DNA of 64,000 nt from Lachnospiraceae bacterium (GTDB lineage: Bacteria; Bacillota; Clostridia; Lachnospirales; Lachnospiraceae). The number at the start of each line of letters is the position of its first letter. Position 1 is the stretch's first letter. The notes under the pieces are model-generated. The model ran no database searches, was not told the origin of the DNA, and saw only the letters and a list, made by a program, of their open reading frames with translations. Of this stretch, positions 8,450-63,561 are shown one piece after another. Both the position numbers and the translations under genes were made by a program. The stretch covers positions 1-64,000 of the forward strand of contig CAJTBF010000001.1 in NCBI GenBank assembly GCA_910574195.1, read 5' to 3'.

Positions 8450-8642
8450 ACAGTGTATCCAGAACTTATGACAGGGCTTTTAACAACGCAGACAAATCAA
8501 AATTGAAGTTTATAGAGAATGCTGCTGTCTTTTCTGAAAGTTTTACCATGGTCCTATGTCAAGATTTAGTACAAGCCAAAATGAGAACTTCCAAATACAC
8601 ATAAGCATGGTACAATAGAGACATGCTGAAGGAGGATCTTAT

Positions 8643-9838: not shown

Positions 9839-9888
9839 AATGGGGAAAATTTCTCATTTTAACTTGTACTAAATCTTGACATAGGACC

Positions 9889-10060
9889 AAAATGGAATCT
9901 TGCAGCATACTTGTCTAAAGGGACAAACTTTATTTGTTTCCGGAGATACTTCTTGGTAGAAAAGAAATTGAAATCATTCGTAACAGTTGCAGCCAGTAGT
10001 GCTACGCAGCCATGAATCCGCCCCTTTGCCGTAGGCAAACTTTTCATGAGGCGGATTTGC
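9889..10060. other. Gene-poor stretch with a long imperfect palindrome
   Basis: AATCCGCC (10015-10022) pairs with GGCGGATT (10050-10057) around a TTTGCCGTAGGCAAA mini-hairpin. A 62-codon minus-strand frame (9859-10047) crosses the insertion sequence boundary and lacks a ribosome site; I do not regard it as a gene. The sequence looks like repeat-derived intergenic DNA. Confidence 0.45.
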
Positions 10061-43047: not shown

Positions 43048-43207
43048 AAAAAACACCTCTGAAATGCCTGAAATACAACGGCAGAGGAAAACGTGCCTTA
43101 CACGATAAAGAATATTGTACCATAATTTGAAAAAACTGTATAGGGCCTGATTTTTAAATTTCTGTAAATTTGTAACAATTTTGTAACATCTTCGCAAAAT
43201 ATATACC

Positions 43208-43350
43208 ATCCGGACACCCGTATCTGGAATACTCCGCACGAATAGACAGCCTATGCTGTCCAGCAAGGTATACCCATCCGGGCATCCCGTAATTCATGCC
43301 CTTCGGGCGGACGGACAGCTACCGCTGTCCGATAAGGTATGAATTATGGG
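43208..43350. repeat. Family U palindromic repeat, two tandem copies
   Basis: Units at 43208-43275 and 43276-43350 share the pattern ATCCGG..CCCGTA, then a short stem (GCCCTTCGGGC or CTCCGCACGA), then GACAGC...GCTGTCC and AAGGTAT. They fill most of the 406-base gap between radC and the flavoprotein gene; no gene is present in the gap. Confidence 0.8.
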
Positions 43351-53620: not shown

Positions 53621-53695
53621 CACATATCCTTTATCGAACGCAAAGCGTCCGCTTATGCAAAGCACATCAGGTACGGGATGCCCGGCTGGATATAG
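53621..53695. repeat. Family U palindromic repeat, inverted copy between mutS and miaB
   Basis: Read on the minus strand it gives CCGGGCATCCCGTACCTGAT, then GTGCTTTGCAT, GGACGC...GCGTTC and ATAAAGGATA, matching the units at 43208 and 63460. Confidence 0.65.
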
Positions 53696-55911: not shown

Positions 55912-56097
55912 TTACACAAACTGATTCCCTTCGGTATCATATGTGTAATCAATCTGCGCCAGCGCCTGTACAATCTCCCCTTTGGAAAGTTCCAGATCTT
56001 CACAAAGCAGATCCAGCGAAGCGTAATGATCCCGCAGTTTCGTATTGATCACACTGAGCAGCATAACCGGGTCTTTCGGTAATTGTTCTTTTAACAT
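55912..56097 (-). CDS. DUF4250 small protein
   Basis: A 61-residue protein with the DUF4250 signature QLPKDPVMLLSVINTKLRDHYASLDLLCEDLELSKGEIVQAL. Started at ATG 56097; ATG 56109 is an alternative because AAAGGA lies close to both. Overlaps the folate cyclo-ligase gene by 7 bases, so it is translationally coupled. Function unknown. Confidence 0.8.
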   Translation of the reverse strand: MLKEQLPKDPVMLLSVINTKLRDHYASLDLLCEDLELSKGEIVQALAQIDYTYDTEGNQFV

Positions 56098-56732
56098 GGC
56101 ATCATCCATCCTTTCTCTGTCACAATCTCTTCCATACGGATATCGTGGGAATCTGCCGGAATCAGGATATCGCACTGGCAGGAAAATGCCAGCCCCATCC
56201 GGTGGTATTGCGGGTGCGCGGCCAGATAACGGTCATAAAATCCTTTTCCGTAGCCGATCCGGTTCCCCAGATTGTCAAATGCCGCACCCGGTACAAGAAC
56301 CAGCACGGCGTTTTCTTTTCCAGCCCCATCCGGGCATCCCGTATCTGAAGTACTTTGCACGGGCGGCTGGTTTACGCTGTCCGGTAAGGGAGGATGTTCC
56401 GCTTTTTTCTGTGTCCGGCGCGGCTCTAAAATCCCCTGATACCCCGGTTCCAGTTCCCGAAGATCTTCCACGTAATAAAAGTGCATTTTTTCAGGACCTT
56501 CCACCCGTGGAAGCGCAACTCGCTTTCCCAGTTTCCATGCAGTCTGCAGCAAATCGACGGTTGACACTTCTCCCCGGAAAGCCGCATAACCATAAATTTC
56601 CCTGGCACGCAAAAAAAGCGGATGTGCGGCAGCCAGCCGTGTAATTTCCCGGCCGTATGCCTCCCTCACTTCCGCCCTCAACGCCTGCCGTCTGTGCAGT
56701 GCACGGGTTCTAATGTCCTTTTTTGTTTCCAA
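56091..56732 (-). CDS. 5-formyltetrahydrofolate cyclo-ligase with in-frame repeat insertion
   Basis: A 213-residue enzyme (MTHFS family) recycling 5-formyl-THF to 5,10-methenyl-THF. Start is TTG 56732 behind GGGGGAG. Family motifs: RTRALHRRQAL at the N-terminus, GKRVALPRVEG, and the ATP/metal site VLVPGAAFDNLGNRIGYGKGFYDRYLA. Between ILEPRR and VLVLVPG an extra loop of about 23 residues (running from PPLPDSV to DTGCPDG) is encoded by a complete family U palindromic repeat (56328-56398). The core looks undamaged, so the enzyme may still work. Coupled to DUF4250 and to DUF896 upstream (23-base overlap). Confidence 0.9.
   Translation of the reverse strand: METKKDIRTRALHRRQALRAEVREAYGREITRLAAAHPLFLRAREIYGYAAFRGEVSTVDLLQTAWKLGKRVALPRVEGPEKMHFYYVEDLRELEPGYQGILEPRRTQKKAEHPPLPDSVNQPPVQSTSDTGCPDGAGKENAVLVLVPGAAFDNLGNRIGYGKGFYDRYLAAHPQYHRMGLAFSCQCDILIPADSHDIRMEEIVTEKGWMMPC
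56328..56398. repeat. Family U palindromic repeat inside a coding sequence
   Basis: ATCCGGGCATCCCGTATCTG, then TACTTTGCACGGGCGGC, TTTACGCTGTCCGGTAAGG: the same order as the intergenic units at 43276 and 63460. It stays in frame with the host gene and adds no stop codon. Confidence 0.85.
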
Positions 56733-57366: not shown

Positions 57367-57442
57367 CAGGATCCACTCCTTTTTTTATTCAGTATTGGCT
57401 TTTTACAGTTTTTTATGCATGACAATTGTCTTGAATTCTTTT

Positions 57443-57526
57443 TAGAGCGTGTTTGAAAATTCATTCCTACAATCTGGTGTGAAGTGGGACACCATCTTGC
57501 AGAAAGCAATTTTCAAACACGCTCTA
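57443..57526. repeat. 84-bp MITE-like element with perfect 19-bp arms
   Basis: TAGAGCGTGTTTGAAAATT (57443-57461) is exactly inverted at 57508-57526. The interior contains CATTCCTACAATCTGG and CCATCTTGCAGAAAGC. The right arm contributes the TAG stop codon of the flippase gene. No transposase is encoded. Related degenerate copies: 53555-53601 and a half copy at 63262-63283. Confidence 0.9.
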
Positions 57527-59209
57527 GAAAACCTGACGTGCGGGCAGCAAATGATGTCTGCGGCAGAATCGGTAGATCTTTTCTCCCTGCGGCAATGTTT
57601 TGAAATCACTTTTCAGAAGTACGCCCAGCTTCAAAGCGGCAATTCCATATACGACCACCGCCACCAGAACCGATACGGTAGTTGCCAGAAATCTTCCGCT
57701 AAAGAGCAGATCCAGCACCAGGTGCAGCACATAGATGACAATTCCCATGATCACGGCGGCCGTCAATGGTTTGATAAAGGTCCGGTCCAATTCCTGCCTG
57801 TAGCCGCAGGTCTTTCGGATTGCTCTGGCATTTAAAATACTCATGCACAGAGAAAAGACAATGTTACTTCCAACCAATGCATAGATATTCCATTTTAACA
57901 GCACCAGCATAAGAAACAGTGCAACAAGATGGACGATCAAAGAGATTCCGGCATTCCTGGCAGGAGTGGAAATCTCATCCAATCCCTGCAGGATGGAATT
58001 GGAAATGGTGGAATAGCTGTACAAAATTACGGTAACCGCCCCAAACAGAAGTAAGGTGGCCGGGGTGGCGCTGTCATCATTGAACAGTAATACCATCAAG
58101 GGGGAAGCCAGCACCGTAAATCCCACAAAGCAGGGAATCGCAATCACCATGGTAAGCCGGATGGTCTGCTCAATTTTTTCGTGGATCTGTCCCTTGTCCC
58201 TCTTTGCCACAGCCGCGGTCAGACTGGGAATGACGGAAGAGGCCAGCCCGTTTGCCACCGCAAGGGGTACATTGATCAGAACATTGTATTTCCCGGTATA
58301 GATTCCCTGCAGCGCCATATATTCTTTCTCCGTGTATCCCTGCGCGGACATGATTCCGTTGAAAATAGTCAGGTCTAAAATCTGATTGATATTATAGATG
58401 GCCGTACTGAAAATGACCGGGAGGATTGTCAGAAGAAGAATCCGCAGAATCCGCCCGTAACTCTCTCTTTTGGAACTGCGGTCCATGCGGATCTGCCGCC
58501 GGATGACTCCCCGGTACGCCAGAAAAGAAAAAACCAGAAAGAACAGCGCCGCCACAGCCCCAGCCACGGTTCCCAGTGTGCCGCCCGCCGCTCCATAGGC
58601 GGCGCCCAGCAATTCTTCCTCTTTCTCTTCGGCAAGGTTCGTACCAATGCGAAACAGAATTCCGGCGCCGATCAGACTGACCGCCGCATTGACAATCTGT
58701 TCCATAATCTGGGAAACAGCCGTTGGCATCATGGTGCCCAGCCCCTGAAAATATCCGCGTAACACGCCCAGAATTGCCACAATAAACAATCCCACTGCCA
58801 GCACCCGCAGTGCATAGACGCTCAGAGGGGATTTCATCAGATTGACGGAGATGGATTCTGCCCCGAAAAAAATCAAAAGTGTCGTCAAAATTCCTACCGT
58901 TGCCGAGAATACAAACGCACACTGAAACACCCGAAACGCATTTCGTCTCTGCCGCATGGCCATCCGGGAAGCGACCAGTTTGGAAACCGCGGTAGGAAGG
59001 CTTAAGGAGGACAGCATCAATGCCATAGCATACACTTCGAACGCATATCCGTAGAACCCGATTCCCTCGTCTCCCAGAATGTTCGTCAACGGAATCCGGT
59101 AGACCACACCGATAACCTTCGTCAGTACCATAGCAACGGCAAGGATCATTCCCTGCATCAGGAAATCATCTTTTTTCTCTCTTCTTCTGTTATTACGTAC
59201 ACTAGACAT
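57524..59209 (-). CDS. MATE/MVF-type polysaccharide flippase (SpoVB/MurJ-like)
   Basis: A 561-residue membrane protein with about 14 segments; ATG 59209 follows GAGGAG. The N-terminal LTKVIGVVYRIPLTNILGDEGIGFYGYAFEVYAMALMLSS and SLPTAVSKLVASRMAM are typical of the SpoVB/YtgP group, which includes lipid II flippases (MurJ-like) and sporulation proteins. The gene ends with QVF and a TAG supplied by the MITE-like element at 57443-57526, so the original C-terminus may have been longer. It follows ybeY by 15 bases. Confidence 0.88.
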   Translation of the reverse strand: MSSVRNNRRREKKDDFLMQGMILAVAMVLTKVIGVVYRIPLTNILGDEGIGFYGYAFEVYAMALMLSSLSLPTAVSKLVASRMAMRQRRNAFRVFQCAFVFSATVGILTTLLIFFGAESISVNLMKSPLSVYALRVLAVGLFIVAILGVLRGYFQGLGTMMPTAVSQIMEQIVNAAVSLIGAGILFRIGTNLAEEKEEELLGAAYGAAGGTLGTVAGAVAALFFLVFSFLAYRGVIRRQIRMDRSSKRESYGRILRILLLTILPVIFSTAIYNINQILDLTIFNGIMSAQGYTEKEYMALQGIYTGKYNVLINVPLAVANGLASSVIPSLTAAVAKRDKGQIHEKIEQTIRLTMVIAIPCFVGFTVLASPLMVLLFNDDSATPATLLLFGAVTVILYSYSTISNSILQGLDEISTPARNAGISLIVHLVALFLMLVLLKWNIYALVGSNIVFSLCMSILNARAIRKTCGYRQELDRTFIKPLTAAVIMGIVIYVLHLVLDLLFSGRFLATTVSVLVAVVVYGIAALKLGVLLKSDFKTLPQGEKIYRFCRRHHLLPARQVF

Positions 59210-63363: not shown

Positions 63364-63561
63364 TCCATCGGGATATCCCGTATCAAGTACCCTCGGGTAT
63401 CCCGTATCTGGGATGCTTCGCACGACTGAACAGCTTATGCTGTCCGATAAGGTATACCCATCCGGGTATCCCGTATCTAATGTGCTCCGCATGAGTGGAC
63501 ACTTTGCGTCCAATAAGGTACACTAATCGGACTACTAATGTCCAATTAGGTATAGTTCATC
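63364..63561. repeat. Family U palindromic repeats, tandem block upstream of murT
   Basis: Units at 63364-63459 and 63460-63522, then a decayed third one to about 63561. They repeat ATCCGGGTATCCCGTATCT, a short stem, GGACA..TGTCC and AAGGTATACCC. Minus-strand translation of the first two stays open and resembles the extra loop of the folate cyclo-ligase (ending DTGYP). The open frame there has no ribosome site and is not taken as a gene. Confidence 0.8.

Follow-up and report, generated by a model that had tools for sequence, protein, structure and literature searches.

Cyclo-ligase gene and the repeat within it

The window, that is, the whole analysed stretch of 64,000 nucleotides from a Lachnospiraceae bacterium (contig CAJTBF010000001.1), carries a 5-formyltetrahydrofolate cyclo-ligase gene with a copy of a palindromic repeat inside it, together with further copies of the same repeat between genes. 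Of the named relatives with the best scores, most are labelled Lachnospiraceae and others Clostridiales or Faecalicatena. The features concerned are as follows.

56091..56732, minus strand: host gene for 5-formyltetrahydrofolate cyclo-ligase, TTG start, 213 residues (open reading frame and Pfam PF01812, E 5.1e-34)
56320..56394, minus strand: element copy within this gene, sense orientation, phase 2, with decay of the first hairpin and of TATA at either end
43268..43342, minus strand: near-consensus copy, intergenic by gene calling, 97.2 bits
43201..43273, minus strand: tandem neighbour of 43268..43342, overlapping it by 6 nt, 52.2 bits
42961..43046, minus strand: diverged copy, intergenic by gene calling, 45.1 bits
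53624..53695, plus strand: copy, intergenic by gene calling, 63.5 bits
63452..63523, minus strand: copy, intergenic by gene calling, 74.8 bits
63385..63457, minus strand: tandem neighbour of 63452..63523, overlapping it by 6 nt, 58.9 bits

The host protein scores 118.2 bits against PF01812, for which the cut-off is 27, and is the sole cyclo-ligase match in its own 3.96 Mb genome at E ≤ 0.001. All 15 invariant columns of an alignment with 39 relatives are kept in it. The inserted copy at 56320-56394 scores 64.6 bits (E 4.6e-18 for the window) with a covariance model based on an alignment of 41 copies that includes this one, and is also found by an iterated nhmmer profile (E 7.3e-15). A repeat search grouped 56325-56394 with 43273-43342 (73% identical) and 63388-63457, and matched 53639-53689 to 56326-56376 in inverted register. 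An earlier note, made from the letters alone, had described a repeat read in frame and without stops inside this gene, and the same repeat at 43.2, 53.6 and 63.4 kb; the model, the open reading frame and the repeat search bear out all of this. Its coordinates, 56328-56398, place the copy in the right part of the gene but lie a few bases off those of the model. The copy is diverged and a profile is needed for its detection: when 43200-43345 served as a plain BLAST query against the whole genome, this copy was not among the matches listed at E ≤ 0.001 (40 of 124 first-look candidates scored). Moreover, its fold is no better than that of shuffled sequences (z +0.41), as against z -4.4 for the consensus.

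Elsewhere in the window, 42-nt inverted repeats at 8549-8590 and 9848-9889, 93% complementary and 1257 nt apart, are possibly the ends of an insertion sequence, and a hairpin at 57439-57530, with 42-nt arms that are 83% complementary, overlaps the end of a 565-residue open reading frame.

Structure and distribution of the repeat unit

The 75-nt consensus of the 41-copy alignment starts with GTATACC and ends with GGGTATAC. In the structure of the unit, three hairpins are enclosed by an outer stem whose ends read GTATAC, and 89.1% of the alignment cells are paired, compared with 27-45% when one side is slid. The terminal inverted repeats read GTATACC...GGTATAC, with 81.0% of the outer-stem cells paired. 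Double changes occur in 35 cells, with 16 expected from shuffles; the pairs showing them number 8, no excess over the 7.2 in shuffles, and the covariation is thus attributed mainly to hairpin 2, which exchanges GCCC/GGGC for GTGC/GCAC, and to two pairs of hairpin 1. Identity with a known Rfam RNA was rejected, as no match in the 64-kb window exceeded a gathering score.

Copies are often arranged in tandem. Among 30 pairs of neighbouring copies, 28 overlap by exactly 6 nt (GTATAC), and 28 are direct and 2 inverted in orientation. The six-letter overlap follows from the presence of TATA at both ends of an insert. Additionally, a shorter palindrome, approximately TTGGACATTAGTAGTCCAATTAG (window 63520-63556; flanks of loci L187, L197 and L217, among others), often adjoins element copies and GTATAC-type ends, and may represent a second, smaller family with the same target.

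The genome of origin (G000) holds at least 149 copies, a lower bound because the search scored 150 of 1601 first-look candidates. Matches to the model were found in 9 of 12 genomes of the genus and in 11 of 150 genomes of the family, each of a different genus, this genome being included in both counts; the other 3 and 139 genomes gave none, stricter filters having been applied to the family. The commonest unit is 75 nt long (adding 69 nt) in G000, 72 nt (adding 66) in the congener G008 and 67 nt (adding 61) in the relative G115, and all three have further unit lengths, the overall range being 66-78 nt. G115 also carries a seven-unit array with a period of 62 (L350, C1:3019352-3019791).

The loop in relatives and in the predicted structure

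Of the 43 residues in the loop between the conserved P104 and P148, the element codes for about 24. The same loop is 14-30 residues long in the 39 aligned relatives and 17-34 in the 9 of 11 congeners measured (G006 and G010 left out), so that length varies naturally at this site; among the aligned relatives, L118 and L122 carry loop extensions of their own. The alignment comprised 39 of 80 loci, L093 being omitted for a stop in the range and others for the sake of a small set, and two of its members, L088 and L089, look identical. Alignment with relatives, as proposed in the earlier note, showed the repeat-encoded loop to be missing from all 39, and the repeat is likewise absent from the gene at all 11 genus loci. 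The model search of loci covered 71 of them. Congener loops, including the long ones of G001 and G002, gave no model match at E up to 1. Of the 11 genus loci, the model found copies only at the G008 locus, where two stand just past the 3' end of the gene (L038, 1317-1448).

The assumption that the ancestral gene lacked the loop is therefore very probably correct. As for the possibility, raised at the same time, that such a loop is normal for the family, length variation at the site agrees with it but the repeat was found in this gene in none of the relatives compared, whose loops span 14 to 34 residues, and the loop was rejected as a normal family feature. The genus orthologues are about 40-60% identical, and no DNA-level empty site is available for this gene.

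The structure was predicted from 40 sequences with a mean pLDDT of 89, single-sequence prediction having been poor (mean 40). The average is 49-58 over residues 111-140 and above 90 in nearly all other blocks. The inserted loop is thus modelled as disordered or flexible. We conclude that the cyclo-ligase loop stems from an old insertion, and the gene that carries it still appears functional.

Copies inside other genes

Further coding copies, for which a search of the genome had been suggested, proved to be many. With a codon test trained on open reading frames free of elements, 16 of 118 clusters in G000 (21 of 149 copies) lie within open reading frames with coding-like sequence on both flanks. 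The weakest of the 16 are L312 (33.6 bits) and L191, which is 34 residues from the start of its frame. These counts used all 149 copies of G000, 109 of 131 matches in G115 and 32 of 34 in G008. In-gene copies are strongly depleted relative to random intervals, as 1276 of 2000 random 75-nt intervals from the same stretches pass as inside genes. A separate gene call found 12 of 95 copies overlapping gene ends. The in-gene clusters amount to 9 of 21 in G008 and to 2 of 55 in G115, where both are weak calls and both copies have a length divisible by three.

The hosts are diverse. By Pfam, those of G000 include a radical SAM protein, which we take to be HemZ-like, an ABC ATPase, in which two units presumably lie between Walker A and the Q loop, a BadF-type ATPase, a BD-FAE esterase, a GH2-type protein, a GNAT protein, an FrhB/ferredoxin protein, a DUF815 ATPase and an MFS transporter; several other host frames have no Pfam match. 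The hosts of G008 include an alpha-L-rhamnosidase, FGGY and PfkB kinases, a pseudouridine synthase, a histidine kinase, an E1-E2-ATPase-type protein and an acyltransferase. Many of the in-gene inserts are spanned or flanked by Pfam domains. The commonest peptide in G000 is of the GYTLSDSxSCPSARRASxTGCPDG type, read from the sense strand, and antisense copies give peptides of the VYPSGHP type. Related genes have been hit more than once among PucR-type regulators, the element standing near or before the start in G000 (L188, 1501-1573) and inside the gene in G008 (L369) and G005 (L401).

Filled and empty sites

Hosts of G000 were aligned with relatives 60-79% identical over the flanks (44% for the protein of L176), and the loci of the relatives were searched with the model. 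The repeat is missing at the site in all relatives compared for the ABC ATPase (3), the radical SAM protein (4), a polymerase-like membrane protein named by eye (2), the esterase (1), the GNAT protein (2) and the L176 protein (1), and in 2 of 3 for the DUF815 protein. Unrelated sequence occupies the spot in two radical SAM relatives, both polymerase-like relatives, the GNAT protein of G002 and the L176 relative, and these are therefore variable sites. In the DUF815 protein, the same LY is followed by nothing in G001 and G002, by one unit in G009 (39.2 bits) and by two units in G000. For the BadF, GH2, FrhB and MFS genes, no close relative was present among the matches examined, which came from a joined query.

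Sites at the DNA level were obtained by comparing G008 with its sister genome G005, in which the FGGY kinase, PfkB kinase and histidine kinase sites are without the repeat and read CTATAT, ATATAC and ATATAC, respectively. In the FGGY kinase (92% identical), the empty site CGC AAG CTA TAT AAA corresponds to the filled CGC AAG CTA TAC ... GTA TAT AAA, a gain of exactly 66 nt in G008. The histidine kinase has AAA TAT ACG when empty and AAA TAT ACA ... GGG TAT GCA when filled, and the PfkB kinase TCA TAT ACG and GGG TAT ACC ... GGG TAT ACC. Thus, the empty state of the three sites is TATA, and the filled state has TATA at both ends, except for TATG at one end in the histidine kinase. The case for target duplication rests on these three sites, because the 6-nt ends of 61 isolated copies gave weak signals (p 0.04 for direct and p 0.03 for inverted identity); a claim of duplication from those ends was dropped.

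Other inserts are common to G008 and G005, with 3 and 3 units in the ATPase-type protein, 2 and 1 in the PucR-type regulator and 1 and 2 in the rhamnosidase, respectively. At the sites of the acyltransferase and the pseudouridine synthase, G005 has different sequence, without a copy by the model, and a phosphoesterase was compared with a 40% identical relative only.

Frame keeping

Copy length is divisible by three for 19 of the 20 in-gene copies and for 55 of 103 others (Fisher p 3e-4), a test from which 6 near-N-terminal copies and, on the side of the others, those below 45 bits were left out and in which tandem copies are not independent. A gain of 69 or 66 nt leaves the frame intact. The in-gene fraction of G115, whose commonest unit adds 61 nt, differs from that of G008 (p 8e-5) and from that of G000 and G008 together (p 0.01), with p 0.06 against G000 alone. 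G115 also has 69-nt units (15 of 109 copies) and 10 three-unit clusters, all of which would keep the frame in principle; as these are rarely in genes, length is not the whole story, and other differences between the genomes may contribute to the contrast.

The preferred reading frame of the inserts is +2. Among 87 copies outside genes (at least 55 bits), frame +2 is open in 54, +3 in 59 and -1 in 53, and with these similarly open, stops alone do not account for the preference. The codon phases of the inserts are 17:7:1, as against 581:169:167 for TATA in coding DNA (p 0.13, or p 0.048 without the weak copy L312), L364 having been counted by its left end while its right end is in another phase. 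In coding DNA, TATA lies most often in the TAT-A phase (581 of 917), and the codon phase of the target roughly explains the preferred frame.

Comparison with known repeat families

Several short repeat families can enter coding regions, among them Rickettsia palindromic elements (RPEs), ERIC, REPs and BOX (PMC2229807, PMC10969869, PMC3733652, PMC3049150). RPEs are described as short palindromic repeats found between genes and in frame in unrelated conserved genes, where they give a recurrent peptide (PMC2229807, PMC10969869); they measure 105-146 bp and have 12-bp terminal inverted repeats, and in the description cited their target duplication bears a question mark (PMC2229807). To judge from the title of a reference, Wolbachia palindromes are kindred to them. 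The present element shares with RPEs the palindrome set in frame in conserved genes and the recurrent peptide, but not their length or ends: its units are 66-78 nt (commonest 67-75) and its outer stem, with GTATAC as its ends, does not exceed 8 bp. It is set further apart by its three hairpins, insertion at TATA, tandem nesting and a Clostridia host, in a comparison made by description only. The resemblance to RPEs proposed in the earlier note thus holds for the way of working and fails for unit length and ends.

REPs are given as 20-40 bp long and tagged at one end by GTAG or CGTC, and as sometimes lying inside open reading frames of several species (PMC3733652). The present repeat is likewise palindromic and sometimes within open reading frames. 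However, its consensus ends are GTATAC and no GTAG or CGTC tag is present, and the genome has a single Y1_Tnp frame, of 141 residues. MITEs such as ERIC, NEMIS and RUP are described as having TA termini and inverted ends and as lacking their own transposase, with some open frames fused to genes (PMC2229807). All of these are found here as well, but the present element is shorter, with an inverted end of at most 8 bp and several hairpins, and no partner insertion sequence was found for it in this genome. The pneumococcal BOX elements are modular Firmicutes repeats that can overlap genes; the account cited deals mostly with gene ends, own reading frames or gene disruption, and describes no in-frame insertion in conserved proteins (PMC3049150), in contrast to the present element. 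PARCELs are palindromic DNA with a tandem 25-residue coding unit, reported as arrays in reading frames without assigned function, many of them membrane-targeted (PMC2996958), whereas the repeat studied here interrupts unrelated enzymes; PARCELs were again compared by description only. Among the open-access papers listed in searches, no report of in-frame palindromic elements in Clostridia was found.

Discussion

Taken together, the repeat is very probably a MITE-like palindrome that works in the manner of Rickettsia palindromic elements but has a length and ends unlike theirs. As a small, mobile and non-autonomous palindrome with a unit of about 75 nt, it would insert at TATA and leave TATA on both sides, as at the three sister-genome sites and presumably also in the cyclo-ligase copy, whose ends are decayed. 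Since the ends would recreate TATA, new copies could nest into old ones and give arrays with a common GTATAC. The typical gain, 69 nt in G000 and 66 nt in the sister genome, is divisible by three, and often several frames are free of stops; some in-gene insertions would therefore be tolerated while others would be removed by selection. Surviving copies are predicted to give rise, on translation, to loops of 22-24 residues, most of these hydrophilic, and the cyclo-ligase loop would be one old, diverged example. Transposition as the route, translation of the copies, and peptides that are tolerated rather than useful are what we infer.

The element is called MITE-like on account of its ends, target and dispersal. 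As for a mobilizing enzyme, the genome has no match to DDE_3 transposases, and its one Y1_Tnp gene, by size of the IS200 type, has surroundings unlike the repeat by eye. RAYTs are larger than its frame of 141 residues. An autonomous parent was sought among 20 inverted copy pairs lying 0.4-3 kb apart; the open reading frames between three of them, inspected by eye, included none that is transposase-like.

Some of the evidence also suits other readings. The elements may be mainly RNA or DNA structures near genes, acting for example in mRNA stability or termination, with the in-gene copies as accidents that are slow to clear. Such a role, a serious possibility that we nevertheless hold to be improbable, draws on the covarying hairpins and on location, 102 of 118 clusters being outside genes by the codon test (although 12 of 95 copies overlap gene ends in the other gene call) when nearly two-thirds of the random intervals fall inside. 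The multiple-of-three lengths of in-gene copies and the contrast between G008 and G115 are explained in it only by survival, which already forms part of the mobile-palindrome explanation, and the two are compatible. That coding copies are selected for a useful peptide, as a domesticated linker or regulatory loop, we consider unlikely. Shared inserts do stay in frame despite changes in unit number (3/3, 2/1 and 1/2 in G008/G005, 2/1 in G000/G009), and element codons have a dN/dS of 0.45 in the three inserts shared by G008 and G005. The flanks, however, show 0.13, so that the element part is under weaker constraint; single inserts give 0.34, 0.39 and 1.05, only 119 codons were compared, and the host proteins are unrelated. 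The element-codon dN/dS is a sign of weaker constraint and not strong evidence of function.

A negligible chance is left to the view that the cyclo-ligase loop is ordinary length variation resembling the repeat by accident. The spread of loop lengths across relatives, the private extensions of L118 and L122 and the failure of plain BLAST to return the copy would fit it, but the model E-value of 4.6e-18 in the window led to the rejection of chance similarity, and no congener loop, long or short, gave a match to that model at E up to 1.

Compared with the earlier note, the TATA target, the three-hairpin structure, the tandem nesting and the multiple-of-three effect are added here. The significance of the element lies in its large-scale occurrence in Clostridia, with filled and empty sites at the DNA level in sister genomes and a TATA target, and in the contrast between genomes whose common unit keeps the frame and those whose unit breaks it. 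We tentatively suggest, at somewhat less than even confidence, that in Lachnospiraceae a lineage of TATA-inserting elements has come to use unit lengths divisible by three, so that copies and nested arrays can live in genes. Such an element would be adapted to passage through proteins and would gain and lose whole units of 22-23 residues, as with the 3/3, 2/1 and 1/2 units of the sister genomes and the two, one or no units across four genomes in one gene, and it would thereby provide recurrent new loops. With such a system at hand, the old question of whether such inserts amount to junk that is tolerated or supply new parts for proteins becomes directly testable.
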